From assembly GCA_903834765.1 (NCBI GenBank), contig CAILKE010000007.1, positions 1-36,814 on the forward strand: a stretch of 36,814 bases of DNA. Direction: 5' to 3'. A model generated the notes under the pieces. It saw only the letters and a list, made by a program, of their open reading frames with translations. It ran no database searches and was not told the DNA's origin. Positions 20,956-36,814 of this stretch are shown one piece after another. The position numbers were made by a program, and so were the translations under genes. The DNA comes from an uncultured Bacteroidota bacterium. Lineage in GTDB: Bacteria; Bacteroidota; Bacteroidia; B-17B0; Aurantibacillaceae. Each line of letters begins with the position of its first letter. Within the stretch, counting starts at the first letter, position 1.

Positions 20956-23814
20956 ATGACTCCATTTCTTAACCTATTAGCGCAATACATTTTTGATCAT
21001 CACGAACATGATACAGAAAAATTATGCATCGTATTACCCAACAAGCGCGGAGCGTTATATTTAAAACAACATCTTGCCAACGTATTTAATAAAACCATTT
21101 GGTTACCAACCATTATTAGTGCGGAAGAATTAGTAGCGCAATTATCAGGTTTGCAACAAGCTGATAGTATTGATTTAATTTGTGACTTATATGTAGCTTA
21201 CACAACTGTTTTAAAAGAAAAAGCCGAACCCTTCGATTCTTTTGCTAAATGGGGTACTTTAATGCTTCAGGACTTTAATGAGGCCGATCGTTATTTAGTA
21301 GATACAAAAATTTTATATCAAGAACTGAAAGAAATTAAACTGATTGAAAACTGGTCGCTTAGTGCTGAAAAGCTAACTACTACACAAGAAGAATATTGTC
21401 AGTTTATGTTCTTGATGGGCACTATTTACGACGTATTCACTCAAAATTTATTACAAAAAAAACAGGCTTATCAGGGTTTAATGTATCGTAAAGCCGTTGA
21501 GCAATATCAGCAATCTACCTATATTGATCAATTTTCAAACATAATCATTGCGGGGTTTAATGCCCTAAACAAAGCGGAAACTATTATATTTTCTGATTTG
21601 GTAAAACAAAAAAAAGCAAACATTATGTGGGATGGTGACACGTATTATGTAAACAATGAAGAGTATGAAGCAGGATTATTTTTACGTAAAAATTTCACTA
21701 ATACGTGGTTAGATACTAAAAATTATATCGGTAGTTATTTTAAGGATATCCCCAAGAATATTGATATAGTGGCCGTTCCAAAGCAGATGGGACAAGCGCA
21801 AGTTGTTGCTCACCAATTACAACAGTGGATATCCCAAGGGAAATCATTAACTAAAACCGCTATAGTGTTGGCAGACGAAAGTTTGTTGTTTCCCATTTTA
21901 AATTTGTTGCCTAAAGAAGTAAAGTTCGTTAATATCACAATGGAATATCCATTACGTTATACGCCAATTTATGACTTGGTGGATAATTTAATTAACCTTC
22001 ATCATTCTACACAAAAAGTAGGAAACTCAAAAAGTTTTTATTTCGCAGATGTTTTTAAGATTTTACAAAACACTTTATTTAAACAATATTACCAAGGCTT
22101 TGAGCCAACTATTAAATTACAAGCAATCATTCAACGTATTATCGATAAAAATTATGTATGGATAAATACGAGTGTATTGGCGACTTTATTTGAAGATAAT
22201 TATAAATACATTGCTCATTTATTTGAGCAATGGAAAAGCTCAGAACAAGGCATACTAGCTATTTCTCAAGTCATAACTGTATTCAATAATTCGGAAGACG
22301 AAGTGCTTACCATTTCTTCAACTGAAAAAGAATACTTGCACGTTTTTACCAAATATTTCAATCGCTTGCGAGCACTCATTACGACGCATCATTATTTAGA
22401 ATCTTTAGTAACACTCAAGAGTTTATACAAACAAATTATTGGAGCTGCTTCTGTTCCTTTTATTGGAGAGCCTTTACAGGGATTGCAAATCATGGGTGTG
22501 TTAGAAACGCGTACACTTGATTTTGAAAACATTATGGTGTTAGGTGTCAACGAAGGGGTATTGCCATCAGGTAAGTCTACCAATTCATTTATCCCTAATG
22601 ATTTAAAACGCTTTCATCAAATGCCTTTGTATGGCGATAAAGACGCTGTATATGCTTATCACTTTTATCGCTTATTGCAAAGAGCTACCAACGTTCTATT
22701 AACTTATAATACAGAACATAGTGCTTTAGGTTCGGGTGAGAAAAGTAGATTTATTACTCAGTTACAATTTGAATTACAAAAATATAATTCTGAGCATACC
22801 ATCTCCGAAAAAATGCTGAGCGGAGGAACACTCCCAGCAAGCATTCGCAACGTTATTGAAATTCCAAAAACGGAAATTAATTTATTTCCCATCATCAAAA
22901 AATTAACAACAAATGATGAATACAATGGGTTGAGCCCTTCTGCATTGATCACTCATAAAGATTGTGCCTTGCGATTTTTTTTCAGATATGGTGCTGGAAT
23001 TAAAGAAGCAGCGGATGTAGAAGAAAATGCAGAAGCAAACACACAAGGTTCTATTTTACATAAGTCTTTAGAAAAGCTTTATATGCCTTACATTGGAAAT
23101 GTTTTGAAAACTGATGATATAAAAAATTGTTTAGCGCAAACAACTGAAACAGTTGATGCGGTATTTCAAACTTTTTTTAGTCAAAAAGAAAGTCAGTTTG
23201 GGAAAAATTACTTGCAACGAAAAGTGTTGTACGAATACGTAAATAAATTATTAAAATCTGATTTAAAATTAATTAGTCAATCTGCCAAAGCAAATGAACT
23301 ATTAAGCATCATTGATTTAGAACGAAACATGAGCGCCACTTTAACCATTGATATAAAGGGAATTCCAACACTTGTTTATATTAAAGGCTCTGCGGATAGA
23401 ATTGATAAATTAGGAAATCATATTCGTGTGATTGATTATAAATCGTCAATAAAAACAACGGATAAATTTAAGTTCATTGATTTTGATTTATTGTTTTCGG
23501 ATAAAGATTATAATAAAATGTTACAATTATTTATGTATGCCTGGTTGGCTGTAAAAAATAACATTGCTAAAGCAGAACAATTAAAGCCCTGCATTATTCC
23601 TTTCAAAAAATTTGAAGAAACGCCTCGGTTTATTTTAGAGAATACAAGTCGAAATGCGGAAATATTAAATTTTACACCTGAGTTATTGGCTGAATTTGAA
23701 GTCCATTTGATTTTGGAAATTCAAAAAATGATTGATAGTAATACCTGTTTCAGTCAGACAGAAGACTTGAAAACCTGCGAATACTGCGCCTATGCTGCTA
23801 TTTGTAATATTTAA
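20956..23814 (+). CDS. AddB-like PD-(D/E)XK nuclease with iron-sulphur cysteines
   Basis: The 952-residue product starts at ATG 20956; a longer frame beginning with TTG at 20890 would start inside the terminator. The N-terminal two thirds resemble a decayed superfamily I helicase (IVLPNKRGALYLKQ where an active enzyme has a Walker A). The C-terminal third is a RecB-type nuclease: His702 (GSILHKSLEKLY), Asp814 (GSADRID), D827-Y-K829 (VIDYKSS) and Q857-x3-Y861. Cys670 together with C941-x2-C944-x5-C950 matches the iron-sulphur staple of AddB. This suggests a subunit that helps process double-strand ends for recombination. The partner AddA-like helicase gene is not in the window. It ends 28 nt from the convergent panB gene. 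Confidence 0.85.
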   Translation: MTPFLNLLAQYIFDHHEHDTEKLCIVLPNKRGALYLKQHLANVFNKTIWLPTIISAEELVAQLSGLQQADSIDLICDLYVAYTTVLKEKAEPFDSFAKWGTLMLQDFNEADRYLVDTKILYQELKEIKLIENWSLSAEKLTTTQEEYCQFMFLMGTIYDVFTQNLLQKKQAYQGLMYRKAVEQYQQSTYIDQFSNIIIAGFNALNKAETIIFSDLVKQKKANIMWDGDTYYVNNEEYEAGLFLRKNFTNTWLDTKNYIGSYFKDIPKNIDIVAVPKQMGQAQVVAHQLQQWISQGKSLTKTAIVLADESLLFPILNLLPKEVKFVNITMEYPLRYTPIYDLVDNLINLHHSTQKVGNSKSFYFADVFKILQNTLFKQYYQGFEPTIKLQAIIQRIIDKNYVWINTSVLATLFEDNYKYIAHLFEQWKSSEQGILAISQVITVFNNSEDEVLTISSTEKEYLHVFTKYFNRLRALITTHHYLESLVTLKSLYKQIIGAASVPFIGEPLQGLQIMGVLETRTLDFENIMVLGVNEGVLPSGKSTNSFIPNDLKRFHQMPLYGDKDAVYAYHFYRLLQRATNVLLTYNTEHSALGSGEKSRFITQLQFELQKYNSEHTISEKMLSGGTLPASIRNVIEIPKTEINLFPIIKKLTTNDEYNGLSPSALITHKDCALRFFFRYGAGIKEAADVEENAEANTQGSILHKSLEKLYMPYIGNVLKTDDIKNCLAQTTETVDAVFQTFFSQKESQFGKNYLQRKVLYEYVNKLLKSDLKLISQSAKANELLSIIDLERNMSATLTIDIKGIPTLVYIKGSADRIDKLGNHIRVIDYKSSIKTTDKFKFIDFDLLFSDKDYNKMLQLFMYAWLAVKNNIAKAEQLKPCIIPFKKFEETPRFILENTSRNAEILNFTPELLAEFEVHLILEIQKMIDSNTCFSQTEDLKTCEYCAYAAICNI

Positions 23815-23842
23815 GTTAAATAATTTTTAGAATCCCCTTAGT

Positions 23843-24658
23843 CTAATACTGCTCAGTATCATTGGGGAAATCCCTACTTTTAACATCTTTGATATATTGC
23901 TGAAAAGCACCTGACATACTTTCGTATAAATTCAAATAGCGGCGTAAAAAACGAGGACTAAATTCATGTGTCATGCCTAGCATATCGTGTGTTACTAATA
24001 CTTGGCCATCAACTCCACCGCCAGCACCAATGCCAATAACAGGTATGGAAATGCTTTTAGCAGTTTGTTCTGCTAATGAAGCAGGTATTTTTTCTAGCAC
24101 CAACGCAAAACAACCGAAGTCTTCTAATAATTTAGCGTCCTCTAATAAGCGTTGTGCTTCTTCTTCCTCTTTTGCTCTAACTGTATAGGTACCGAATTTA
24201 TAAATAGATTGTGGCGTTAATCCCAAATGCCCCATAACAGGGATTCCAGCTGATAAAATTCGTTCTATAGAATCTTTAATTTCTCGTCCACCTTCCATTT
24301 TCACAGCATGTGCGCCACTTTCTTTCATAATTTGTACTGCTGATTCTAACGCTTTTTTTGAATTCCCTTGGTATGAACCAAAAGGTAAATCAACTACAAC
24401 TAAGGCTCTATCTATTGCTCTAATAACAGAAGAAGCATGATAAATCATTTGATCCAATGTTATGGGCAACGTTGTTTCATGGCCAGCCATTACATTACTG
24501 GCGCTATCACCTACTAAAATTACATCAATACCGGCATGGTCAATAATTTTTGCCATTGTATAATCGTATGCTGTTAGCATAGATATTTTTTCGCCTCGGC
24601 GCTTCATTTCCTGCAATTGGTGCGTTGTTACCTTTTTTACTTCTTTATGAACCGACAT
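23843..24658 (-). CDS. panB: 3-methyl-2-oxobutanoate hydroxymethyltransferase (PanB)
   Basis: The 271-residue product is the first enzyme of pantothenate (vitamin B5 and CoA) synthesis, adding a hydroxymethyl group from methylene-tetrahydrofolate to 2-oxoisovalerate. Metal and catalytic residues are all visible: Asp51 ([12 protein letters not shown]), Asp90 (VVDLPFGSY), Glu122 (KMEGG) and Glu189 (LVLEKIP). The glycine loop [15 protein letters not shown] is also present. I chose the ATG at 24658 because it gives the family length (about 265-275). A start at 24850 would add 64 residues and overlap the divergent lipoprotein gene and its promoter. No panC or panD is adjacent. Confidence 0.95.
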
Positions 24659-24688
24659 ATTCGTTAGGATTATTAGAGTTAAGCATAG

Positions 24689-24696
24689 CAAAACTA
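24689..24696 (-). promoter_or_regulatory. -7 element upstream of panB
   Basis: The minus strand reads TAGTTTTG, a perfect TAnnTTTG match, 30 bp before the panB start. I could not find a clear TTG at the -33 spacing. Confidence 0.45.
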
Positions 24697-24704
24697 ATAA
24701 TTTA

Positions 24705-24734
24705 TTTGGAGTTAAGTAAAAATTAGTAAATTTG
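24705..24734 (+). promoter_or_regulatory. Bacteroidota-type promoter of the lipoprotein gene
   Basis: TTTG (24705-24708), 18 nt, then TAAATTTG (24727-24734), an exact TAnnTTTG match. The start codon is 21 nt further on, which leaves a short leader without a Shine-Dalgarno sequence. Confidence 0.7.
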
Positions 24735-24755
24735 GCTTTCTTGTAAAAAATATAA

Positions 24756-25916
24756 ATGAAAAAATCAATCATATCTCTCAGTCTTATAGTGTTTGTGTCG
24801 CTAATAGTTACTTCATGTAAAAATGATTTAACTGTATTAGCTCCAGGCAAAGAAGTTGTTTCTGTTTATGGAATTTTGAATCCAAATGAGCCACTACAAA
24901 GCATTCGTATCAATAAAGTTTTTGCAACTACAGGTGATGCAAATGCAGCAGCTCAAGATGAAAAGATTATTAACTTTGACGCAAATGAACTAGTTGTTAC
25001 TTTAGAACGATATAATACAGGTAGCACAACCCCTCAATTAACGACGGTTGGCAACAGTTTTAAAAAAGAAATAGTATTAACTGAAACAGTTGTAACTACT
25101 GCCGATGGTGCATTTAGCAATCAGCAACGCATTTGGCAAACAACTGATAAATTATTTCATACAGGAGAATATAAACTGGTTATTAAGAAAGCAAGTGATT
25201 TAAATACCACTATTGCCTCAGCACAAACAGTAGTTATTGATAGTGTAAGTACTTCATCTGGTGGAGCATCACCTAATCCATTTTATTACATAAATGGAAC
25301 AGTTACTCCTATGCATGGTGGGGTTTTTCCTTTTCCAATAAGCGATCCTGCTGATAAACCAAAGTATATTAATTACGATGTTTTTACTGTAACTCAATTT
25401 ATTAAATTTAAGTCAACACCAAACGCAAAAACATACGAAGTTGTGATGCGATTTCACTACGTTGACAGTTTAATTGGAGGAGCTACAAGTAATGAGTATG
25501 TTGATTATAATTTCGATTCCCAGCAATCTGCTGCATTAGTAGGTGGCGAATTATTTTTATCATTTAAATTTGTTACAAATGATTTCTATACTAATGTTGC
25601 CAGAGAAATTGCTAAAAAACCAACTGTTAATATCAAAAACAGAAAATCAGATTATATGGAATATATTGTGAATGCAGGAACTGAAAATTTATTTACCTTC
25701 CTTCAAGTAAATGCTCCTTCCTCAACTATCGCTCAAGATAAACCCTATTATTCTAATATTACTGGTGGGGTTGGAATTTTCGCATGTCGCTCTACTTCCA
25801 TCGTTACTAAAGACTTATGGAGCAATTTTGTGGATAAAATAGCATGTAATCCAAGTACTTTTCCTTTATTGTTTTGTGACTATTCAGGTAAGCCAAGAGC
25901 TTCAACCTGCCCTTAA
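24756..25916 (+). CDS. Lipoprotein of unknown function, possibly DUF4249-like
   Basis: The 386-residue product has a lipoprotein signal (SLIVTSC, lipid Cys21) followed by an Asn-Asp pair, so it is likely surface-exposed or periplasmic and membrane-anchored. The rest is beta-rich, beginning with a strand like that of DUF4249 proteins ([19 protein letters not shown]) and ending with [11 protein letters not shown], which also recalls that family; the match is from memory and weak. No enzyme motif is seen. Cysteines near the C-terminus (IACNPS, FCDYSG, STCP) could form disulfides. It has its own promoter and terminator and so appears to be a single-gene unit. Confidence 0.7.
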
Positions 25917-25944
25917 ATCTATATTCTGACAAACATTCCAACTT

Positions 25945-25980
25945 AAACCATCTAAAATGACAAGTTTTAGGTGGTTTTTT
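25945..25980 (+). terminator. Terminator of the lipoprotein gene
   Basis: AAACCATCTAAAA (25945-25957) pairs with TTTTAGGTGGTTT (25965-25977), one G-U pair, 7-nt loop, ending in a T6 run. Confidence 0.85.
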
Positions 25981-26079
25981 GCTGTTTATGTCAGGCTGTC
26001 ATAAAAAAGCTTTCTTTTATTAATGGCATAAACATTGACTACCTAAGGGAAAAAAATCACAATTTAAAACATTAAAACA

Positions 26080-27984
26080 ATGGGAAAAATAATAGGAATA
26101 GATTTAGGTACAACCAATAGCTGCGTGTCGGTTATGGAAGGTAACGAAGCTGTAGTAATTGCAAATAGCGAAGGTAAGCGTACAACGCCCTCTGTAGTGG
26201 CTTTTATTGAAGGTGGCGAACGTAAAGTTGGCGACCCTGCAAAACGTCAAGCAATCACAAATCCAACAAAAACAATATCTTCTATCAAACGTTTTATGGG
26301 AGTTACTTTTGACGAAGCTCAAAAAGAAATTCCTCGTATGACTTATAAAGTAGTTAAAGGCGATAATGGCACTCCACGTGTTGTTATTGATGATAGAAAC
26401 TACTCTGCTCAAGAAATTTCTGCTATCATTTTACAAAAAATGAAAAAAACAGCTGAAGACTTCCTAGGAACAACTGTTGATGAAGCAGTTATTACCGTTC
26501 CAGCTTATTTTAACGATGCTCAGCGTCAAGCAACTAAAGAAGCTGGCGAAATCGCAGGATTAAAAGTAAAACGTATCATTAACGAACCAACTGCTGCTGC
26601 CCTTGCATATGGCATGGACAAAAAAGGAAAAGACATGAAAATAGTAGTGTTTGACTGTGGTGGTGGAACACATGACGTTTCAGTATTAGAATTAGGAGAT
26701 GGTGTATTTGAAGTAAAATCTACCGATGGTGATACTCACTTAGGTGGTGATGACTTTGATCAATTAATCATTGACTGGTTAGCTGACGAATTCAACAAAG
26801 AAGAAGGCATCGATTTACGTAAAGATCCAATGGCTTTGCAACGTTTAAAAGAAGCTGCTGAAAAAGCAAAAATCGAATTATCAAGTACTACAACTTCTGA
26901 AATCAATTTGCCATACATTATGCCAGTAAATGGTATACCAAAACACTTAGTTAAATCGTTAACACGTGCTAAGTTTGAGCAAATGGCAGATAGCCTTATC
27001 AAAAGAACAATTGATCCTTGTAAATCAGCATTGAAAAACGCAGGTTTATCTACTTCTGATATAGATGAAATTATATTAGTAGGTGGTTCAACTCGTATAC
27101 CAGCTGTACAAGAAGCAGTAGAGAAATTCTTTGGAAAAGCGCCAAGTAAAGGTGTTAACCCTGATGAGGTTGTAGCTTTAGGAGCTGCTATCCAAGGTGG
27201 TGTATTAACTGGAGAAGTAAAAGATGTATTATTATTAGATGTAACTCCTTTATCATTAGGTATTGAAACGTATGGTGGTGTGTTTACAAAATTAATTGAA
27301 TCAAATACAACTATTCCTTCTAAGAAAACAGAAACATTCTCTACAGCAAGTGATAACCAACCAAGTGTACAATTACATGTATTACAAGGTGAGCGTCCAA
27401 TGGCTAAAGATAATCGTACTATTGGTCAGTTTAACTTAGATGGTATTATGCCTTCACCTCGTGGTGTGCCTCAAATTGAAGTAACATTTGATATTGATGC
27501 GAATGGTATCTTATCGGTTTCTGCAAAAGATAAAGCAACTGGTAAAGCACAAAACATCCGTATCGAAGCTTCTTCTGGATTAAGCAAAGAAGAAATTGAA
27601 AAAATGAAACGTGAAGCTGAAGCTAATGCTGACGCTGATAAAAAAGCGAAAGAAGAAGCTGATAAAATAAATGCAGCTGATGGTATGATTTTCACTTCTG
27701 AAAAACAATTGAAAGAATACGGAGATAAAATACCAGCAGATAAAAAAGCAGCTATTGAAAGCGCTTTAGCAGGATTAAAAACAGCTCACGATTCTAGAGA
27801 TATCGCTGCAATCGATTCAGCTATGACAAGCATTAATGCTGCATGGGAAGCCGCATCTCAAGATATGAATAATGCGATGAACCAACAAGGTGGCGCTGAC
27901 GCGCAAGGTGGTGCAGAACAACCTAACGCCGATGCTGGTAAATCTGAAAATGTAACTGACGTAGATTACGAAGAAGTAAAATAA
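26080..27984 (+). CDS. dnaK: Chaperone DnaK (Hsp70)
   Basis: The 634-residue product is a full Dna[18 protein letters not shown] (phosphate 1) at the start, [14 protein letters not shown], the adenosine segment [13 protein letters not shown], the beta-sandwich substrate domain ([14 protein letters not shown]) and a helical lid ending in a disordered Gly/Ala/Gln tail and DVDYEEVK. It folds proteins in the cytoplasm in an ATP cycle with DnaJ and GrpE, neither of which is encoded here. The phosphate 2 motif is D192-C-G-G-G-T-H-D199 in place of the usual DLGGGTFD. No CIRCE element lies upstream; a TGTCA direct repeat (25989-25993 and 25997-26001) is the only regular motif seen there, and its role is unknown. 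Confidence 0.97.
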
Positions 27985-28006
27985 GCTTAGTACATAATGA
28001 TAAACT

Positions 28007-28040
28007 AAAAAGCTGTTTGTGTTCACAAACAGCTTTTTTT
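28007..28040. terminator. Strong bidirectional terminator after dnaK
   Basis: AAAAAGCTGTTTGTG (28007-28021) and CACAAACAGCTTTTT (28024-28038) form a perfect 15-bp stem with a T7 run on the plus strand and, read in reverse, a T5 run for transcripts of the CHAT operon. Confidence 0.9.
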
Positions 28041-28087
28041 ATGAATTTAGTTCAACATCTCGAAGGATTTATTTTACTGTGCTTTAG

Positions 28088-28243
28088 ATCCTGAAACAAG
28101 TTCAGGATGAACGTAAAATTAAATGTCAGTTCAAGTATTTTTTGCCTGCCTCTTGCAATCACGCTATAGTGTGAATATCGAGAGCCTTTCTTACAATGAC
28201 TTCTCGATATGCGCTTGAAAAAAGACTCAAGCGCTACTCGAAG
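28088..28243. repeat. Palindrome-rich intergenic element (REP-like)
   Basis: Three inverted repeats sit in the gap between dnaK and the CHAT gene: ATCCTGAA/TTCAGGAT (28088-28095, 28101-28108), ATATCGAGA/TCTCGATAT (28175-28183, 28202-28210), and an imperfect stem with core GCGCTTGA/TCAAGCGC (28211-28218, 28227-28234) extended by CTTCTCGA/CTCGAAG. The wording (CTGAAACAAGTTCAGGATGA and CTACTCGAAGTGACA) is like short dispersed intergenic repeats I recall from Bacteroidota genomes. No open frame is present. Confidence 0.6.
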
Positions 28244-28261
28244 TGACAGTTTAAAAATGAA

Positions 28262-30577
28262 TTATGAAAGTGGCTTATGAGTGCTTTTAAACTTTCGTTT
28301 TTTAAATATTACAAGCAGCATTATAACACAAACAGTTATTATTAAAATTGCTAAATATAAATAAATGTGTGTTGCATCTTTTTTACTTAAATAAAAATCG
28401 CTACCATAATATACATAAGCTCCCCACATAGATGGTGAATAGTTTTGTTTTGCAAAATAAAGTTTTGTTTCATATAATGCATCTGATGAAGCTAATCCTT
28501 GAGCCATAAAAGAATAAAATTTTTCTAAAAATTCAGCATTTTCTTTGTCGTCAATAGGCCACAAACTGCTTATAACAGCGCTTGCATGCTGGTTCATTAA
28601 TTGGTGCGGTAGGCTGTTAGTTTTATCATAACATTCTTGCTTACCCAAATTGCTACTGCAAGCATTTAATAAATAAGAGCTTCCATCCAAATTATTTTTT
28701 AAAACAGTGCTACTACTAATGTAGGCACTATCACTTAATATTAAGAACTGCTCTGTTGAATTGTTATTGGTTTTTGCATGACCTAAAAATTGCATTAATT
28801 TATTTTTTTCAAAAAATGGCGACACATTGGATGTATTTATTTTAGTGATATTAAAAAATCCATAGAGCTTATCTATTAATTTATCACTCGAATGTAATTG
28901 CGAATAATAATTCGAATTATACTCTGGCATCAATACATTTAGTTGATTGTAAGTTAACACTTTGTCGAATGACTGCATTAAATTTTCAGCACTGATAGTA
29001 TAAGTAAATTTATATTTTCTAATTAAGGCCGTCTTTAAAATAGAATTTTTAGTACATGAATCTGTTTGTAATAAGTCGAAATTTAGCCCGTTCCAATTCA
29101 TATCCGGTACAACTACTACATCAGTGATTTTATTTTTTTGAAGCATCGAATCAATTTTTGTAAAAAATAAATCATATAATTCAAATGTTTGTTTTTTAAA
29201 ACGTTTCATATCATTTTTTAATAAATATGAATTTATAACATTGTTTATAGGAAAATACCTTGCTATTTTTCTATTTTTATTATTCGAGCATTCAACTAGC
29301 ATGTTAGTATTTGGCAATGATACAATTGCAATTAAAATATCGGGCCCGCTTGTTACAAAATAGTTGATAGTTGCACAATTTTTTTTCTGACAAATTTTCG
29401 AAATGCTATTTAACTTTTTGGTATTATTAGCTACGCTAAAATCACAATTAGTATTTTTTTCGGTTCTTTTATTTTTTATGAATTCGATTAATCCATAGCA
29501 ATGAGCAATATATATGTTATTATTTGTGGCTTTGTATAATAGGAAATATATTAATATCAACTTTTGGTATGGATTAACGGAATATTGATCATCCATACTT
29601 TTGATGTTGTTTTCTTTAATTTTTTCTAAATATTTTTCCCAGGCAGGTATACTTTGCAATAATGTTTTTTCTGCTGCATAAATAAATTTGATACTATCAG
29701 TTTTATCAAATAAATTGATATAAACTGAAGCTTGCCAAGAGCATATACCCGAATATTCTGAATTCGCTGGTCGTTTCGTTGCACATTGAAGGGCATTTTT
29801 TGCTTTCTCTGCCAATGCTATGGCCTCACGATTATGCCCTATATAGCGTTCTGCTAGCAACCACATTTTGTAAATAGAGGCATGTAAAATACTTTTTTTG
29901 TTGGGATAAATTGTTGTTGCTAATTTTTCGGCAACAGTTGAGTAGCTTATACATTTTTTATAGAATGCTAATACTTTTTTGTCTTTCCATTTTTCTTCTG
30001 AATCAACATTAATACAATCAGTTAAAAATGTAGCGTAACGTTTGTAATGCAAGGCTTTTAAAAATGTGTTATTGCTGTATGCAATAGCCGAATCAAGCAA
30101 ATGCACATCGGCATATAATGTATTGCGAGCGGCATTTCCTAAATAACTATAATAACGTGCGAGCTGCGTGCTATCCTGATTTTTTTTGCAGACTCGTTTA
30201 AAAACTCCTGTTGCTTTAATATAATAATAGTTTGTAGAATCATTCATCAAATATAAAAGCGTATAGTGCGCCACGCGCGCATAATATAGAGCGCTATCTA
30301 ACGAGGTGCTATTTGTTGTTTCAAATAATAGGTGCAAATAATTTAAATTATTTTTAAAGTCGTTATTCTCTAAACTATATTCGGCCATAAAATCATACGC
30401 ATGACCTAATTCTTTTTTAGAAACAATTCCTTTTTTTTCGATGGTTTTTTTTGCCAGTAAAAAAGCACTATCTGTTTTACCACTCCAATGCAATTTAAGC
30501 GGTATGCCTTGAGAAATGCATATTGTGCTATGGAAACATGAAATGATTAACAGTAGGCTTACAGTATATTTAAACAT
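28262..30577 (-). CDS. CHAT-domain (caspase-like) protein with helical N-terminal region and C-terminal membrane anchor
   Basis: The 771-residue product begins with a signal peptide (YTVSLLLIISCFHSTICISQ), continues with an alpha-helical, probably TPR-type region (about 30-400), then a CHAT peptidase domain (about 430-735), and ends with one membrane helix (about 738-758, IYLYLAILIITVCVIMLLVI) and a basic tail FKKRKFKS. The CHAT catalytic pair is visible: His600 in FLGHAKTN and Cys640 in YLLNACSSNLG, followed by the usual AVISSLWPIDD and the closing W-G-A-Y strand. Topology predicts a protease in the periplasm tethered to the inner membrane. It is the third gene of the sigma/TPR/CHAT operon, 43 nt after the TPR gene. 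CHAT enzymes are clan CD cysteine proteases; the substrate here is unknown, and the membrane TPR protein is one guess. Confidence 0.88.
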   Translation of the reverse strand: MFKYTVSLLLIISCFHSTICISQGIPLKLHWSGKTDSAFLLAKKTIEKKGIVSKKELGHAYDFMAEYSLENNDFKNNLNYLHLLFETTNSTSLDSALYYARVAHYTLLYLMNDSTNYYYIKATGVFKRVCKKNQDSTQLARYYSYLGNAARNTLYADVHLLDSAIAYSNNTFLKALHYKRYATFLTDCINVDSEEKWKDKKVLAFYKKCISYSTVAEKLATTIYPNKKSILHASIYKMWLLAERYIGHNREAIALAEKAKNALQCATKRPANSEYSGICSWQASVYINLFDKTDSIKFIYAAEKTLLQSIPAWEKYLEKIKENNIKSMDDQYSVNPYQKLILIYFLLYKATNNNIYIAHCYGLIEFIKNKRTEKNTNCDFSVANNTKKLNSISKICQKKNCATINYFVTSGPDILIAIVSLPNTNMLVECSNNKNRKIARYFPINNVINSYLLKNDMKRFKKQTFELYDLFFTKIDSMLQKNKITDVVVVPDMNWNGLNFDLLQTDSCTKNSILKTALIRKYKFTYTISAENLMQSFDKVLTYNQLNVLMPEYNSNYYSQLHSSDKLIDKLYGFFNITKINTSNVSPFFEKNKLMQFLGHAKTNNNSTEQFLILSDSAYISSSTVLKNNLDGSSYLLNACSSNLGKQECYDKTNSLPHQLMNQHASAVISSLWPIDDKENAEFLEKFYSFMAQGLASSDALYETKLYFAKQNYSPSMWGAYVYYGSDFYLSKKDATHIYLYLAILIITVCVIMLLVIFKKRKFKSTHKPLS

Positions 30578-30620
30578 AAAATATCTTGGGCAAATAAAAT
30601 CATTTAATATTTTTTAATAG

Positions 30621-31334
30621 CTATTGATGTGAGTAGTTTTCGAAATCTTTTAAAATTAGCTTCCTTTTAATTTCCAAATTAATTTGATTAAAAGTACGCT
30701 TACTTAATATTTTATATCCTTCATCTTGTTTGTTATTATATAAATAACACAAGGCTAAATAAAAATACGATTTATTTTTATATACCGATAAGTTAGATAA
30801 TGCTTTTAAATAATGAGTAGCGCTATCCAACTGATTTATTTTTATGTAACAAATACCTGCATAATACTGAGCTGTATCATTTTCGCTAACATTTAAAAAT
30901 TTATTAATGGCTGCATCATAATGTTCACTTTTATAATAACTCATGCCATTGTTTAATGCCATGCTATTATTGGCGGGTCCCATCCAAACTTTAAAACCGG
31001 CATCTTCTATCCAATAATTAGTAATAGTGGATGATTTATCAGATAAAGTAAATTTTACTAAAAGCCCTAAGGAAATTATTAATACTATGCCGGCAGCAAT
31101 TTTATAATAAGTAATAAGAGGTGTTTGTTTTTTAGTTTTAAAATCCAACAATGGTGGTTCGGTAAATTGTTTTAATAATTGTATATTATACTTATTGTTT
31201 TCTAAAAACAATTTCAATCCCGCTAATGCTTCATCATCAAATTGATTATTTTTTATGTAATCACAAAAATAAGTTTGATGGCTTAGTAAACCATTCAACA
31301 CTTCGGTATAGGTATGTTTTTGTTTTGGGTCCAT
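30621..31334 (-). CDS. Single-pass membrane TPR protein, anti-sigma-like
   Basis: With the ATG at 31334 the product has 237 residues; the preceding sigma gene ends in TAATG, sharing one A with this start, a layout typical of translational coupling. An ATG at 31352 would add six residues and is possible. Residues 1-75 are soluble and would be cytoplasmic, 77-98 form one membrane helix (YKIAAGIVLIISLGLLVKF), and about 120-230 are TPR-like helices (NNGMSYYKSEHYDAAINKFL, YYAGICYIKINQLDSATHYL) on the periplasmic side. The layout of short cytoplasmic part, one helix and outer sensor domain, next to an ECF sigma gene, is that of membrane anti-sigma factors, but no known anti-sigma motif is seen, so the role is inferred. 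Confidence 0.8.
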   Translation of the reverse strand: MDPKQKHTYTEVLNGLLSHQTYFCDYIKNNQFDDEALAGLKLFLENNKYNIQLLKQFTEPPLLDFKTKKQTPLITYYKIAAGIVLIISLGLLVKFTLSDKSSTITNYWIEDAGFKVWMGPANNSMALNNGMSYYKSEHYDAAINKFLNVSENDTAQYYAGICYIKINQLDSATHYLKALSNLSVYKNKSYFYLALCYLYNNKQDEGYKILSKRTFNQINLEIKRKLILKDFENYSHQ

Positions 31335-31894
31335 TACATAAAAAGTTGCCATAATTTTTTAATACGTTGTTTGGCATTATGCAACGTATTACGAACGGTA
31401 TTATAACTAATATTTAATTGAACAGCAATTTCTTCATTTTTATAACCTTGCAAATGCAGTTCAATCATTTCTCTTTCACGCTTAGGTAAATTATTTAATA
31501 AGTGTTTAATAGCTTCTAATTCAAAACGAATAAAAGCAGCGTTTGTACTATTAAATGAAATTAAAGTTACTAAATGTTTTTTTATTTCATCCTGCAACTT
31601 GTTTGTTTTTAATCCATCTAAACATTTATTTTTTACTATAGTAACTAAAAATGGATAAATACCTTTTTGAGGATGAAGTATTATTTGCTGGCGTTTTTGA
31701 GCATTAAGCTGTAAGAGTTTCTCGAAAACAGCGCCTACTATATCTCTGCTTTTTTCAGTGTCAGTAGTGTATTTATAGGCAATCATCACCAACGATTGAT
31801 AATGGTGTATATACAATTTACCAAGAGAGTCGTTATTACCATTTAGGTAATTACAACTCAACTCATACTCGCTAATATGATTATTGTTTTCCAA
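31334..31894 (-). CDS. ECF-type sigma-70 family RNA polymerase sigma factor
   Basis: The 186-residue product has sigma region 2 (LGKLYIHHYQSLVMIAYKYT, then a DIVGAVFEKLL segment and the FLVTIVKNKCLDGLK helix) and region 4 (LPKREREMIELHLQGYKNEE, then LNISYNTVRNTLHNAKQRIK). Regions 1 and 3 are missing, as in ECF factors. The first usable start is TTG at 31894; an in-frame stop lies about 30 nt upstream and there is no ATG in between. It heads the operon with the membrane TPR and CHAT genes and would direct RNA polymerase to a regulon, perhaps including its own operon. ECF sigma genes followed by FecR and SusC/D genes are common in Bacteroidota, but that arrangement is absent here. Confidence 0.93.
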   Translation of the reverse strand: MENNNHISEYELSCNYLNGNNDSLGKLYIHHYQSLVMIAYKYTTDTEKSRDIVGAVFEKLLQLNAQKRQQIILHPQKGIYPFLVTIVKNKCLDGLKTNKLQDEIKKHLVTLISFNSTNAAFIRFELEAIKHLLNNLPKREREMIELHLQGYKNEEIAVQLNISYNTVRNTLHNAKQRIKKLWQLFM

Positions 31895-31901
31895 AGCTGC
31901 G

Positions 31902-31937
31902 CAAAAATAAAAAAATATTACTGCTTATTAGTACAAA
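31902..31937 (-). promoter_or_regulatory. Candidate promoter of the sigma/TPR/CHAT operon
   Basis: On the minus strand TTTG (31934-31937), 24 nt, then TATTTTTG (31902-31909), an exact TAnnTTTG match. The spacing is slightly long, and the -7 box ends only 7 nt before the TTG start, which would give a nearly leaderless mRNA. Confidence 0.4.
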
Positions 31938-31978
31938 GTAAAATATTAATCGTTTTACCTATACTGCAACCCCATTTC

Positions 31979-32227
31979 ATGCGCAGGTATTTATTTTGTA
32001 AAGTGGATGTAAGAAAGATTATTCATATTAATAAACTCATTAAGGCACAACGCACAGGCTCACCAAAAGCATTGAGCACGCAATTGGGTATAAGTGAGCG
32101 CACAGCTCATAATTATTTAAGCTTTATGCGTAAAGAATTGAAAGCTCCTATAAAATGGAACTCCTATAAAAACACGTATATATACGAAAACAATGGCGAA
32201 TTTAAATTTGAATGGCAACCGCATTAA
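31979..32227 (+). CDS. Small helix-turn-helix protein
   Basis: An 82-residue product from ATG 31979; the same frame is open back to 31877 but that would overlap the sigma gene and its promoter. The core (HINKLIKAQRTGSPKALSTQ, then LGISERTAHNYLSFMRKELK) is a helix-turn-helix of the kind at the start of DeoR/BirA-type regulators, followed by a wing-like APIKWNSYKNTYIYEN strand pair. I recall similar stand-alone small HTH proteins from Bacteroidota, without an experimentally known role. It is divergent from the sigma operon (84 bp) and upstream of the trypco2 gene, so it may act on either promoter. Confidence 0.72.
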   Translation: MRRYLFCKVDVRKIIHINKLIKAQRTGSPKALSTQLGISERTAHNYLSFMRKELKAPIKWNSYKNTYIYENNGEFKFEWQPH

Positions 32228-32497
32228 AAAGAATAAACGCCGACTGTAAAAAAATGTATTAGTGTTTCAATTTTTTTTATTTCCAATATATGGAAATAAT
32301 GTTGCGATAAACGAAATAAACACAAACTGCAACCTCAATGCGGTACAATGATTTTACTTTGACATATTAATAAACCTTTTTTTTGTTAAAGGTTAAAATA
32401 ACAAAGGCGATACAGGTATCGAAGAATTTAAGTAATCTAAAAGATAAAAACACTAATTAGGTTCGGGAAAATCATTAAAGCACTTTAAAACAAAAAT
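32228..32497. promoter_or_regulatory. Intergenic region with three inverted repeats upstream of the trypco2 gene
   Basis: This 270-bp gap holds TATTTCCA/TGGAAATA (32278-32285, 32291-32298, 5-bp spacer), AACCTTT/AAAGGTT (32373-32379, 32388-32394) and the tight palindrome CGATAC-AG-GTATCG (32408-32421). The first and third look like dimer operators; the second may be a hairpin. No exact TAnnTTTG box and no reading frame were found. Confidence 0.45.
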
Positions 32498-32791
32498 ATG
32501 GAAATAAAAAAATTTATAGCTGACATACTTGATGAATTGCAAGACCTAAAGGATAATGCAAATAAAAAAAGATACAACATTAAAGAATTAGAATTTGAAT
32601 TAAATTTTGTTGCAAAAAAATCAGGGACATTAAGAGCTGGATCTGCACTTTGGGATGTTCTTGTACCTGTTACTGCTGAAGGCAATTACTCTAAAGACCA
32701 AATACAAAAAGTGAAAATCACACTAATTCCAAAAAATGAAAGTAAAAACAACCCTTCAATGAAAATTCCTCTTATAAAAAATAACCTCTAA
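32498..32791 (+). CDS. Trypsin-co-occurring domain 2 (trypco2) protein
   Basis: The 97-residue product starts with an amphipathic helix (MEIKKFIADILDELQDL), then a strand pair (IKELEFELNFVAKKSG), a central W-D-V-L-V-P segment and the final EGNYSKDQIQKVKITLIPK. This helix plus EFE-type strand, central hydrophobic strand and S-x-x-Q-x-x-KV-x-LTP ending is how I recognise trypco2, a small domain named for its association with trypsin-like or caspase-like proteases and predicted conflict systems. Here a caspase-like CHAT gene is 1.9 kb away on the opposite strand. No signal peptide, so it should be cytoplasmic. It is followed after only 11 nt by the giant secreted protein gene and is likely co-transcribed with it. 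The identification is by eye and was not tested. Confidence 0.75.
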   Translation: MEIKKFIADILDELQDLKDNANKKRYNIKELEFELNFVAKKSGTLRAGSALWDVLVPVTAEGNYSKDQIQKVKITLIPKNESKNNPSMKIPLIKNNL

Positions 32792-32802
32792 ACCAAACAA
32801 CC

Positions 32803-35800
32803 ATGAAAAAAATTCTATCTCTCATAATCTTTGCATATTGTATTCAAAACTATTTGGTAGGGCAAACGCTTATTACCAATGGCGCTAATTTTGGGATTAG
32901 TTGTACAAATTCAAAATATAATTTGAGTGCACCTAATGGTGCCATACCATGTTCTACTATGAATGCTGTACAAACATCTATTTTATTTGATGGTGATTGC
33001 GCTTCTAATATAATGTTTAACTGCGCAAGTTGCTCAAGTTCAAGTGTTAATTCTGAAATAATTTTTGATACAAAAAGAAGTGTTCAATTAGCCAAAATTA
33101 TTCTAAAAGGAGGAAGACCAAGTTTGGGATCTGCTACACCTGTTCAATTATTTACATCTTCCTCTCAATTTGGACCTTGGACTCAAATAGGAATAACATT
33201 CAACCAGAATGTACCTGCTGTCGTTTGTGCAATAAATACTAGAGAAATTACCTATACTATATCAAACCCTAAAGTTTCACAATTTTGGAAATTTACAATC
33301 GCTGGAAATCCAGGTGGTTGCGCATTAGGATTTGATTATAATTTTACTTTAGAAATAGCACTCTATGAACTACCATTAATAACAACAAGTGTTGCAAATC
33401 CTTTAATAAATGGGGGATGCACTATCTTAACAGCAAATACGCCCGGTGAAACCTATCAATGGTCAACAGGTGCTACCACACAAACTATTAGTGTGTGCAA
33501 TTCGGGTGTTTATACTTGCACCGTAACCAATACCAGTTTTACGGGTAATCAAGATCATGTGGCCTCTATTGCGGTAACTACCTTGGGTCAACAAGATAAT
33601 TTACCAGGGCCTAATGGCGAGGTGTATGCCATTTACAAAAATGGAAATAATGTATATATAGGTGGAGATTTTAATGCCGTTGGCCCTATTACAGGTAGTG
33701 GTGCACAAATAGATACTACTACGGCTATAGCCAATACGAGTTTGCCACGTGTAGATGGTACTATTAATACAACGATTAGCGATGGCGCTGGTGGTTGGTT
33801 TATTGGTGGTACATTTACCAGAGTTGGTAATTATGTAATTAATAATTTAGCCCATATAAACCCTAACAATACGGTTGATGTAGGTTTTAAACCTGAACCA
33901 AATGGTGCTGTGTTTACTTTAAAATTAGACAATGCGGTATTATATATTGGTGGTGCTTTTACTACCGTAAAAGGTTTAGCTAATAATTACATTGCCAAAT
34001 TAAATAAAATAAATGGCTCGCCTGTTTTTTGGAACGCCAATGCCAATGGCATTGTTAGGTCTATTGCCCAATATGCAGACCAAGTAATTGTTGGTGGAGA
34101 TTTTACGTCATTAGGTGGTGGCGCGCGTAATTATTTAGGAGCTGTAGATAGTATTTTTGTACAATTAAATGCGTGGAATCCTAACCCTAATGCGGCTGTT
34201 TATAAAGTATATGTAAATGGCACAAAATTATATGCTGGTGGCGATTTTACAACTATTGGCGGAGTGAGCAAACAATATGGTTGTGGCTTTACCTTACCTG
34301 CTTTTACTACAGATGGTTATAATATGGGAGCTAATAGCAGAATACACGATTTTGTATTAAATAATAATATATTGTATGCAGCTGGTACTTTTACGCTTAT
34401 TGGTGGTGCAGCTCGTAATTATGTAGCAGGTATGAACTACCTTAATGCATTAGCTAATACCTTTAATGCAACTGCAGATGGCATTGTGTATTCATTGGCA
34501 ATATCAAGTAATAAATTAATGGTTGGGGGTGCGTTTTCAAATATAGGTGGCGCAGCGCGCAACCGCATAGCCACATTAAGTTTAACAAGTGGCACTGCTA
34601 CTGCATGGAATCCTAATGTGATAGGATTAAAAGGTACAACTTCGGTAGTTAACTCAATTGCAACTAATAGTAACAATATATATGCAGGCGGCTATTTTTA
34701 TAGTGTAGGAGCTAGCACCCGAAATAATATTGCATCTTTAGATGCTACAACGGGTTTACTTACAGCCTGGAACCCAAATGCAAACAGTATAGTAAGAGCT
34801 ATTTATGCCGATAATACCAATGTGTATTTAGGCGGAGATTTTACAACAGTAAACGGTAGTATTTTAAAAAACAGAATTGCGCAAATTAATGCAACTACAG
34901 GTACAGCAACCGGTTGGAACCCTAATGCCGACGGGGCAGTTAATGCATTAACGGCAAAGGGCACAACCCTTTTTGTTGGTGGTGCATTTGCAAATATTGG
35001 CGGTGGAGCCAGAGCAAAAATTGCTTCCTTAAGTACTTCAAGTGGTGGAGCTACCGCGTTTAATCCAACTGCTAATGGCGATGTCAATGCCTTATCTATT
35101 GGTGGAGATACGTTATATGTAGGAGGTGCTTTTACAACAATAGGTGGGCAAACTCGAAATAGAGTAGCGGCTTATGGTATTACCTCAAGCGCGTTATTGG
35201 CTACAAACCCTAATGCTAACAATACCGTTAATGCGCTTTCTTTTGCAAATAATAAATTATACATAGCCGGTACATTTACAAATATTGCTGCTGCTAATAG
35301 AACTTATTTAGCGGAGTATGATGTAGTAGGTAATGCATTAACTAGTTTAGATGCTTCCTTTGTTACATCATCAGGTATTAACGCGTTGTTTTCATCTGAT
35401 GTTTCTTTGTATCAAGGTGGTGGTTACAACTTTGCCAATCAAGGGCAGCCAATCAATAATTTATCAGCCATTAATACGGCAAGTGCTGCAGTTGGCTATT
35501 GGCAGCCGCAACCTGATGATATTATTAGAACTATTTTTGCAGCTACTGATAAAGTTTATGTGGGTGGCAGATTTAAAACGATTACCAGTCGTTACCAACC
35601 TTATTTTGCAAGCACGGATTTGTTTGTTAGTTCAAACAGTAAACCAATCTTAACATCATTATCTTCAAACACAATATGCGTAGGAGATACTATTAAAGTA
35701 AATGGTTCTGGTTTTATAGGCGTTTCAGCTGTTAAAATTGGAACAACAGTAATGACGTATAGCGTTATTTCAAGTAACTTAATAAAGGTTTTTACAACAA

Positions 35801-36814
35801 CTAATATTACAGGTATTTTATCAGTTACTAATCCAATTGGTACAACAACTATAAGTCCATCAGTAACGGTTAGCGCATTACCAAGCGCAAGTATTACATC
35901 AGTTGGTTCCACTTCTGTTTGTCAAGGGTCTAGTGCATTATTAAATGCAAATACGGGCGCTGGTTTAACTTACCTATGGAGTTTAAATGGAACAACTATT
36001 AGCGGTGCAACAGCCGCAACCTATTCGGCAATAGCTGCAGGTATTTATTCGGTTTCAGTAAAAAATGCAGGCGGTTGTTCAAAACAATCAAATGGTATAA
36101 CGGTTACAGTTAATGCAGCTCCAACAGCAAGTATTTCAGCTGTTGGTTCAACTAGCATTTGTCAAGGCTCAAACTCTGTATTAAATGCTAACACAGGCAC
36201 TGGTTTATCTTACCAATGGACACAAAATGGTGCAAATATTAGCGGAGCAACAGCAGCATCTTATTCTGCCACTGCAGCAGGCAGTTATGCAGTAGTGGTT
36301 ACAAATACATTAAATTGTAATGCAACATCAAATACAGCAAGTGTAACAGTAAATACGTTACCGGTTGTAACTGCTAATGCAACAAGTACTGTTGTTTGTA
36401 CTGGGCAATCAATTACCTTAACAGGTGGTGGTGCAACTACTTATGCATGGTCGGGTGGAGTTACTAATGGTGTATCTTTTGCGCCAACAGTAAATGCTAC
36501 TTACACAGTAACAGGAACCGCAGCAACAGGTTGTACTAACACAGCAACTAAAGCAATTACAGTAAATACGTTACCTGTTGTAACAGCCAATGCAACAAGC
36601 TCTGCCGTTTGTTTAGGTCAAACAACAACCTTATCAGGTGGTGGTGCAAATACATATGCATGGTCAGGCGGTGTTACTAATGGTGTAGCTTTTGCACCAA
36701 CAGTAAATGCTACTTACACAGTAACAGGTACAGCAGCAACAGGCTGCACAAACACAGCAACTAAACAAATTACAGTAAATAATTTACCAACAGTTACAGC
36801 AAACGCAACAAGCA
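32803..36814 (+). CDS. Giant secreted beta-propeller and Ig-repeat protein, 3' end outside window
   Basis: The frame is open from ATG 32803 to the last base, 1337 codons with no stop seen at any point checked. A signal peptide (KKILSLIIFAYCIQNYLVGQ) comes first. A beta-sandwich, possibly F5/8-type, covers about residues 22-190, then one Ig-like unit (YQWSTGATTQTISV). From 33652 to 35570, 14 repeats of about 48 residues each carry a Y-x-GG-x-FT-x-x-G motif, resembling DUF5122-type propeller blades. An IPT/TIG-like domain (about 35640-35880) follows, then Ig-like repeats of 80 and 71 residues running off the end. A T9SS sorting domain is expected beyond the window but not visible. It is probably a surface or released binding protein. 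It starts 11 nt after the trypco2 gene. Confidence 0.88.
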   Translation, partial: MKKILSLIIFAYCIQNYLVGQTLITNGANFGISCTNSKYNLSAPNGAIPCSTMNAVQTSILFDGDCASNIMFNCASCSSSSVNSEIIFDTKRSVQLAKIILKGGRPSLGSATPVQLFTSSSQFGPWTQIGITFNQNVPAVVCAINTREITYTISNPKVSQFWKFTIAGNPGGCALGFDYNFTLEIALYELPLITTSVANPLINGGCTILTANTPGETYQWSTGATTQTISVCNSGVYTCTVTNTSFTGNQDHVASIAVTTLGQQDNLPGPNGEVYAIYKNGNNVYIGGDFNAVGPITGSGAQIDTTTAIANTSLPRVDGTINTTISDGAGGWFIGGTFTRVGNYVINNLAHINPNNTVDVGFKPEPNGAVFTLKLDNAVLYIGGAFTTVKGLANNYIAKLNKINGSPVFWNANANGIVRSIAQYADQVIVGGDFTSLGGGARNYLGAVDSIFVQLNAWNPNPNAAVYKVYVNGTKLYAGGDFTTIGGVSKQYGCGFTLPAFTTDGYNMGANSRIHDFVLNNNILYAAGTFTLIGGAARNYVAGMNYLNALANTFNATADGIVYSLAISSNKLMVGGAFSNIGGAARNRIATLSLTSGTATAWNPNVIGLKGTTSVVNSIATNSNNIYAGGYFYSVGASTRNNIASLDATTGLLTAWNPNANSIVRAIYADNTNVYLGGDFTTVNGSILKNRIAQINATTGTATGWNPNADGAVNALTAKGTTLFVGGAFANIGGGARAKIASLSTSSGGATAFNPTANGDVNALSIGGDTLYVGGAFTTIGGQTRNRVAAYGITSSALLATNPNANNTVNALSFANNKLYIAGTFTNIAAANRTYLAEYDVVGNALTSLDASFVTSSGINALFSSDVSLYQGGGYNFANQGQPINNLSAINTASAAVGYWQPQPDDIIRTIFAATDKVYVGGRFKTITSRYQPYFASTDLFVSSNSKPILTSLSSNTICVGDTIKVNGSGFIGVSAVKIGTTVMTYSVISSNLIKVFTTTNITGILSVTNPIGTTTISPSVTVSALPSASITSVGSTSVCQGSSALLNANTGAGLTYLWSLNGTTISGATAATYSAIAAGIYSVSVKNAGGCSKQSNGITVTVNAAPTASISAVGSTSICQGSNSVLNANTGTGLSYQWTQNGANISGATAASYSATAAGSYAVVVTNTLNCNATSNTASVTVNTLPVVTANATSTVVCTGQSITLTGGGATTYAWSGGVTNGVSFAPTVNATYTVTGTAATGCTNTATKAITVNTLPVVTANATSSAVCLGQTTTLSGGGANTYAWSGGVTNGVAFAPTVNATYTVTGTAATGCTNTATKQITVNNLPTVTANATS
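33652..35570 (+). repeat. Fourteen propeller-type coding repeats, period about 144 bp
   Basis: The Y-x-GG-x-FT motif recurs near 33652, 33796, 33940, 34085, 34229, 34372, 34516, 34677, 34822, 34969, 35113, 35257, 35403 and 35554. Most steps are 143-147 bp, with 161 between units 7 and 8. Confidence 0.85.
35887..36345 (+). repeat. Two Ig-like coding repeats, period 240 bp
   Basis: Units begin at 35887 and 36127 and encode GSTS-V/I-CQGS, LNANTG-x-GL-x-Y-x-W and ISGATAA-x-YSA in the same places. Confidence 0.85.
36346..36814 (+). repeat. Nearly identical 213-bp Ig-like repeats reaching the window end
   Basis: Units start with ACAGTAAAT at 36346, 36559 and 36772, exactly 213 bp apart; the first two differ mainly at third codon positions. 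Each encodes TANATS, a C-x-GQ strand, YAWSGGVTNGV and NATYTVTGTAATGCTNTATK. Confidence 0.9.

Follow-up and report, generated by a model that had tools for sequence, protein, structure and literature searches.

A caspase-like CHAT protease encoded beside a sigma factor and a membrane TPR protein in Bacteroidota suggests an envelope signalling unit

Why would a bacterium encode an apparently exported, caspase-like protease beside an extracytoplasmic function (ECF) sigma factor and a membrane protein with tetratricopeptide repeats (TPR)? The question is raised by a stretch of 36,814 nucleotides (nt) from an uncultured Bacteroidota bacterium (Aurantibacillaceae; assembly GCA_903834765.1, contig CAILKE010000007.1, positions 1 to 36,814), hereafter called the window, in which genes for these three proteins stand together. 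Their encoding side by side suggests that the protease, which carries a CHAT domain, cuts the protein that holds the sigma factor and so relays signals from outside the cell to genes. The simplest reading of the whole unit, to which we give somewhat better than an even chance, is transmembrane signalling in which the CHAT protein would act as site-1 protease, followed by RseP as site-2 protease.

The three minus-strand open reading frames (ORFs), the TAATG overlap and the short gap named in the original prediction were all confirmed by an ORF and sequence check. The window proteins also have the parts attributed to them: a signal-like N-terminus, His600/Cys640 and a C-terminal hydrophobic helix in the CHAT protein, and N-terminal helices, one membrane helix and a TPR part in the TPR protein, in agreement with its AlphaFold2 (AF2) model. 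The features are as follows, the membrane topology of both proteins being predicted from hydrophobicity, charge and model.

31334..31894, minus strand: ECF sigma factor gene (186 aa, TTG start)
30621..31334, minus strand: membrane TPR protein, proposed anti-sigma factor (237 aa; ATG overlapping the sigma stop)
31161..31328, minus strand: N-terminal helical domain of the TPR protein, residues 3-58, predicted cytoplasmic and anti-sigma-like (AF2 helices and profile comparison)
31044..31100, minus strand: predicted single membrane helix of the TPR protein, residues ~79-97, with a near-invariant Ala-Ala (hydrophobicity 2.4, N side net positive)
30630..30974, minus strand: TPR helices of the TPR protein, residues 121-235, proposed periplasmic (weak Pfam matches below cut-offs, AF2, Foldseek)
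28262..30577, minus strand: TPR-CHAT caspase-like protease, predicted to be exported and C-terminally anchored (771 aa; Pfam, AF2, fold matches)
30509..30577, minus strand: predicted signal peptide of the CHAT protein, residues 1 to ~23 (hydrophobicity; a lipobox-like IISC at residues 11-14 is an alternative)
28400..29182, minus strand: CHAT domain, residues 466-726 (PF12770 5.3e-18)
28304..28360, minus strand: predicted C-terminal membrane helix of the CHAT protein, residues 740-758, followed by a K/R-rich tail of net +6 (hydrophobicity, charge)

The ATG of the TPR protein begins at base 31334, which is also the final A of the sigma stop codon, and an alternative in-frame ATG lies six codons upstream at 31352; 43 nt separate the TPR stop from the CHAT ATG. 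The codons of the putative catalytic residues are CAT at 28778-28780 (His600) and TGC at 28658-28660 (Cys640), both on the minus strand. A search of the whole source genome gave a single CHAT match.

The association of sigma, TPR and CHAT genes is conserved across many Bacteroidota. The original prediction had offered rarity of this neighbourhood among homologs as grounds for abandoning it; the neighbourhood was found from both search directions. A BLAST search with the window CHAT protein gave matches in 88 of 295 genomes of the class, and the 80 best regions of the match list (E-value down to 2.4e-6, weaker rows excluded) were fetched and all their ORFs scanned with profiles of the sigma factor, the TPR protein and CHAT. 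This CHAT-chosen set, including the window, comprises 86 CHAT ORFs in 81 loci; 40 of the ORFs share their locus with a sigma-TPR pair (18 convergent, 11 co-directional downstream and 11 divergent) and 46 do not. A CHAT-only search of named genomes of the GTDB, made with an alignment (A8) of one subfamily towards which the resulting loci lean, returned 79 loci, 61 of them with a sigma-TPR pair (51 convergent, 6 divergent, 4 co-directional); eight of the 18 loci without the pair are short-flanked. Among the carriers of the whole set are genomes of Flavobacterium (L193), Aquimarina (L224), Bizionia (L231) and Maribacter (L263).

The search in the other direction used a TPR profile of 35 proteins over 395 genomes of the phylum (alignment A4 takes in 35 of the 39 TPR proteins known at that stage, and A5 27 CHATs). 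Since most of the matches at 1e-5, present in 392 genomes, are presumed to be generic TPR proteins, only strong matches were used. The best 40 TPR-chosen loci not previously fetched have a sigma gene adjoining the TPR gene in 39, as in the window, where the two overlap, and a CHAT gene in 30, a fraction to be taken as an upper-side estimate because the profile was built on CHAT-linked members. Ten weaker TPR matches from outside the class lie next to a sigma gene in nine cases and near a CHAT gene in seven, whereas ten arbitrary control regions from the same genome sets gave 0/10 for the sigma-TPR pair and 1/10 for CHAT.

The usual layout is not an operon. The original prediction treated the operon as the form of the system, a description that does not extend to most linked relatives, in which CHAT is convergent or divergent: among 124 CHAT ORFs, 29 are convergent, 27 divergent, 15 co-directional downstream and 6 upstream, and 47 are unlinked. 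CHAT is mostly convergent with sigma-TPR, the 3' ends touching or overlapping, and in 25 of the 29 convergent cases it lies -59 to +43 nt from the TPR gene. The tail-to-head order of the window is a minority form, and shared transcription is therefore not what holds the genes together; as the linkage persists in several layouts, it is not merely inherited co-transcription. In a CHAT tree made by a quick method (115 of the 124 CHATs, nine with <70% of the domain columns dropped, long branches flagged and the placement of the window unsure), the main co-directional clade of 14 rows excludes the window. As an observation in its own right, the 3' ends of the anti-sigma and CHAT genes often overlap by up to ~60 nt when convergent (L034, L044, L047, L193 and others).

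The first partner is an ECF sigma factor by its domains, with regions 2 and 4 present (Pfam Sigma70_r4_2 3.6e-15, Sigma70_r2 3.1e-5) and Sigma70_r3 at only 0.08. It matches NCBIfam TIGR02985 at 4.3e-27, yet under the cut-off of that model, and the profile of its family matches solved ECF sigma factors (SigW 1.1e-17). Matches in the window to a Bacteroidota promoter consensus did not exceed those in shuffles, and none stood at the sigma gene. A near-consensus TATTTTTG directly 5' of that gene was not taken as evidence.

The second partner is, judging from its sequence, most likely a membrane protein that holds the sigma factor inactive, and the anti-sigma character ascribed to it beforehand gains support from profile comparison, which relates its N-terminus significantly to those of known anti-sigma factors. 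The profile of the TPR family, which was built including the window protein and scores it at 5.3e-55, has a consensus start reading ...IEKYLEGELSEEEKEEFEKLLETDPEF... (150 sigma-TPR pairs). Compared with RskA-type anti-sigma N-termini of the same class it gave a probability of 95.3 (E 2e-8), and with FecR-type N-termini 69 (E 4e-5), from small sets of three RskA-type and five FecR-type rows. None of 100 column shuffles reached the score in either comparison, and unrelated control profiles (sigma, CHAT) against the TPR N-terminus gave 0.7 and 0.2. Eleven loci had been drawn for the comparison sets, of which L182, L186, L188 and L189 were dropped as no ORF was extracted from them; E. coli FecR was added. 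Pfam returned a single zf-HC2 match (0.0043) for 35 members of the TPR family.

The AF2 model of the TPR protein (predicted local distance difference test score, pLDDT, 87.7) has short helices at residues 3-13, 20-29, 35-46 and 51-58, a long helix at 74-105 and TPR helices at 121-235. The TPR region matches a designed TPR protein (1na0, Foldseek E 9e-4), and a fold search with the whole model returned mainly TPR proteins. Among solved structures, the top matches of the N-terminal domain were engineered three-helix bundles of protein A (E 3.5e-4, no single stretch passing), and its best anti-sigma row was 3hug (RslA), at E 1.5. In the membrane helix, two neighbouring columns are Ala in 140/145 and 136/146 rows. 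The membrane helix of E. coli RseA reads GVAACVSLAV, with small residues comparable to the Ala-Ala of the TPR family, and RseP cleaves RseA between Ala108 and Cys109 (PMC4597795). The source genome has an RseP gene (match 1.3e-57).

The third partner is a putative caspase-like (clan CD) protease, as judged by its CHAT domain and the His/Cys dyad. His600 and Cys640 are invariant in 16/16 and 27/27 aligned rows of two alignments, and among the 124 CHAT ORFs the dyad is kept in 117, namely 37/37 closely linked, 34/40 linked farther off and 46/47 unlinked. Of the seven ORFs without it, five are truncated where their locus ends, L072 shows a gap in the alignment, and L033 has decayed and carries Ser. 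Since the dyad is also present in 46/47 unlinked CHATs, it marks active CHATs generally and not linked ones alone. The signals for export and anchoring are likewise conserved among closely linked CHATs. Scored by a crude and liberal hydrophobicity rule, in which the best start is chosen, 82 such untruncated proteins include 75 with a signal-like N-terminus, 78 with a C-terminal helix and 72 with the two together; a lipobox-like motif, such as the IISC of the window protein, occurs in 5/82. Over all 124 CHATs, the C-terminal helix is commoner in linked (59/77) than in unlinked ones (19/47; p = 1e-4, with no correction for relatedness), and 73 of 78 helix-bearing CHATs have a tail of net positive charge.

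The AF2 model of the window CHAT protein (pLDDT 79.9) finds its top structural match in Csx29 (Foldseek 2.9e-13; VIA Z 29.9), tied with yeast separase (Z 29.4), and also matches DdvA (8rot_A; Foldseek 6.4e-11, Z 22.0); the sequence profile of the CHAT family matches Csx29-type proteins at 2e-10 and DdvA 8rot_B at 4.3e-8. With Csx29 and DdvA among the nearest folds, the unit might be a defence regulator whose CHAT-released sigma factor turns on anti-phage genes, as in type III-E CRISPR or the DdvS/DdvA island, and DdvS controls a CBASS (cyclic oligonucleotide-based antiphage signalling system)/CRISPR island (PMC12288465). We consider this very improbable, however: PADLOC found two families with one member each in 76 flanking proteins, against six families (three of them RtcR models) in 72 control proteins, and the flanks, which alone were examined and outside which the regulon may lie, include MarC, DUF3109 and OmpA genes. 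In the window, no Cas families were found among ten further ORFs flanking the module and no CRISPR-like repeat array in 23000-36814, Cas genes in the rest of the genome not having been searched for.

For transmembrane signalling through the CHAT protease, the steps could run as follows. The TPR protein would be a single-pass anti-sigma factor whose cytoplasmic N-terminal helices hold the ECF sigma factor and whose TPR part would sense the signal in the periplasm. The CHAT protein, which also bears TPRs, would be exported, anchored through its C-terminal helix and serve as a dedicated site-1 protease. Upon an envelope signal it would cut the periplasmic portion of the anti-sigma factor, probably in the stretch that joins the membrane helix to the TPRs, and the remaining stub could then be cut within the membrane by housekeeping RseP near the conserved Ala-Ala, freeing the sigma factor. 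Sigma binding, cleavage, the cut sites and their order, the signal and the regulon are what we infer here. That CHAT is the trigger and not the output is suggested by its linkage to the anti-sigma gene, by the conserved dyad, by the prediction that both proteins face the same side of the membrane, and by two precedents.

Several observations weigh against this reading. No sigma-TPR pair accompanies 47 of the 124 CHATs, and 10 of the 40 TPR-chosen loci have no CHAT nearby. Of the 124 CHATs, 27 are divergent, and in the seven such loci inspected the gene between CHAT and the pair encodes a subtilase (L041, L113), a secreted PKD, DUF7619 or type IX secretion system (T9SS)-type protein (L040, L097, L111, L121) or aminopeptidase P (L064); a subtilase gene also intervenes in the co-directional L046, the eighth locus inspected. 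CHAT as an output would suit these intervening genes too: the pair would then sense the envelope in another way, and the anchored CHAT would be a target gene product processing surface or periplasmic proteins. We regard this as rather unlikely, while giving it real weight. The CHAT genes behind subtilase or secreted-protein genes agree with it, as does convergent CHAT, for which a promoter of its own is required, and so do six of nine CHAT-less pairs, which have a secreted, surface or outer-membrane gene nearby (L126, L145, L149, L153, L159, L171); in the other three (L125, L148, L158), the genes looked at encode HD or serine hydroxymethyltransferase (SHMT) enzymes. Against CHAT as an output, in closely linked layouts it touches the anti-sigma gene itself, as in most convergent cases, and anti-sigma cleavage has a precedent for the TPR-CHAT fold in Csx29. 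In itself, the subtilase gene found between sigma-TPR and CHAT, or near a CHAT-less pair (L159), may mark a second protease of the route.

Coevolution of the TPR protein with its two partners gave no decisive contact signal. Couplings between the sigma factor and the N-terminal domain (mutual information, 143 pairs) did not exceed those in permuted pairings, and the juxtamembrane linker showed enrichment with the sigma factor (143 pairs) as well as with CHAT (87), a pattern that a clade effect would produce. The linker signal does not separate cutting from binding, and the CHAT and TPR proteins could instead form a sensory complex in which CHAT binds the anti-sigma factor or controls another site-1 protease in the manner of RseB, proteolysis being incidental. 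TPR arrays on both proteins, by prediction on the same side of the membrane, would suit such a complex, but a pure scaffold would not need the His and Cys kept in every closely linked CHAT, and we hold it to be quite improbable.

Cleavage of the anti-sigma factor by CHAT must also be weighed against the position of the window, which is a deep, divergent member of the set: its TPR protein shares 13-28% and its CHAT protein 13-20% identity with aligned relatives, except G164. The CHAT of G164, the nearest (73-74% identity), is cut by the contig start, and in that assembly the TPR protein has no match and the sigma matches are weak, as might be expected if the three genes were chance neighbours in one genome. 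The linkage counted in different families and outside the class refutes that explanation, to which we give practically no credence. In G020, CHAT is decayed (three in-frame stops, Cys to Ser) and a search for the window TPR protein came back empty, which would agree with a CHAT gene that serves no purpose once its partners are gone; this is a single case, in which the empty match alone shows little. No DdvA-like one-chain fusion appeared among all ORFs of the fetched loci by joint match to the TPR-protein and CHAT profiles; L254, which both profiles match, was rejected as a fusion because they do so through TPR repeats alone.

Around the module, the window encodes Hsp70 (DnaK), ketopantoate hydroxymethyltransferase, a resistance-nodulation-division (RND) efflux set (AcrB) and a DUF5122 propeller protein. 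Three features adjoin it on the plus strand:

31877-32227, plus strand: weak helix-turn-helix (HTH) ORF (HTH_11 1.9e-4, below cut-off), divergent from the sigma gene and overlapping its 5' end; its true start is probably later
32498-32791, plus strand: 97-aa protein with Trypsin-co-occurring domain 2 (PF19631, 6.1e-10), adjoining the module
32803-36813, plus strand: large gene, cut off by the end of the window, whose product has DUF5122 propeller repeats (7.7e-17) and a signal-like start

The last of these resembles secreted genes near some CHAT-less sigma-TPR pairs.

How does the unit compare with known systems? The original prediction knew of no characterised example, and in this it has to be corrected: in type III-E CRISPR, Csx29 cuts Csx30, an inhibitor of CASP-sigma (Strecker 2022, PMC10028731), and the Myxococcus anti-sigma factor DdvA has a TPR-CHAT fold (8rot). 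In the type III-E system, too, an ECF-like sigma factor, its inhibitor and a TPR-CHAT protease are encoded as neighbours, but Csx29 works bound to Cas7-11 and needs target RNA for its activation, whereas the window CHAT protein has a predicted signal peptide and anchor, and the proposed inhibitor is a membrane TPR protein; the Cas7-11 gene and CRISPR array that would mark a type III-E locus did not turn up around the module in the window. DdvA and DdvS of Myxococcus xanthus (8rot, 8rw5) share with it a membrane anti-sigma factor, an ECF partner and the TPR-CHAT fold. DdvA joins an anti-sigma domain, a membrane helix and TPR-CHAT in one chain, whereas the window has two separate ORFs and a complete His/Cys dyad. 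Work by Bernal-Bernal from 2024 is reported to describe DdvA as having a zinc anti-sigma domain and an active site that is incomplete, and to propose that it cleaves itself before RseP acts. DdvA/DdvS are also treated in PMC12288465 and PMC4374960.

Other known routes share single elements. E. coli RseA/DegS/RseP and FecR/RseP combine a one-pass anti-sigma factor with a first periplasmic cut and a second by RseP; the first cut falls to DegS for RseA and to an enzyme not yet known for FecR, and neither has a TPR part. In CalpL/CalpT/CalpS of type III CRISPR, a protease also cuts the anti-sigma factor of an ECF sigma factor, but CalpL is a Lon-type protease with a SAVED domain, activated by cyclic tetra-adenylate (cA4; PMC11417357). 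The ECF54 group has CHAT, subtilase and carboxypeptidase domains in its gene context and is proposed to work without an anti-sigma factor (PMC8999054, section 3.3), and PMC8195603 places ECF sigma and TPR genes beside EACC2-caspase systems. No paper on the two-protein envelope version or on the Bacteroidota set was found in the open-access literature, a mention in the ECF classification (Casas-Pastor 2021) being possible. The set is real, conserved and mechanistically suggestive. The chances seem to us evenly balanced that Bacteroidota have a widespread, dedicated caspase-type regulated intramembrane proteolysis, with CHAT as site-1 protease for a TPR anti-sigma factor and most often encoded tail-to-tail with it, as a split version of DdvA and an envelope equivalent of Csx29-Csx30. 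If so, many Bacteroidota sigma factors would have a known trigger, caspase-like control of transcription would reach beyond CRISPR systems to the cell envelope, and a single logic would link Craspase with DdvA, whose parts lie in one chain.

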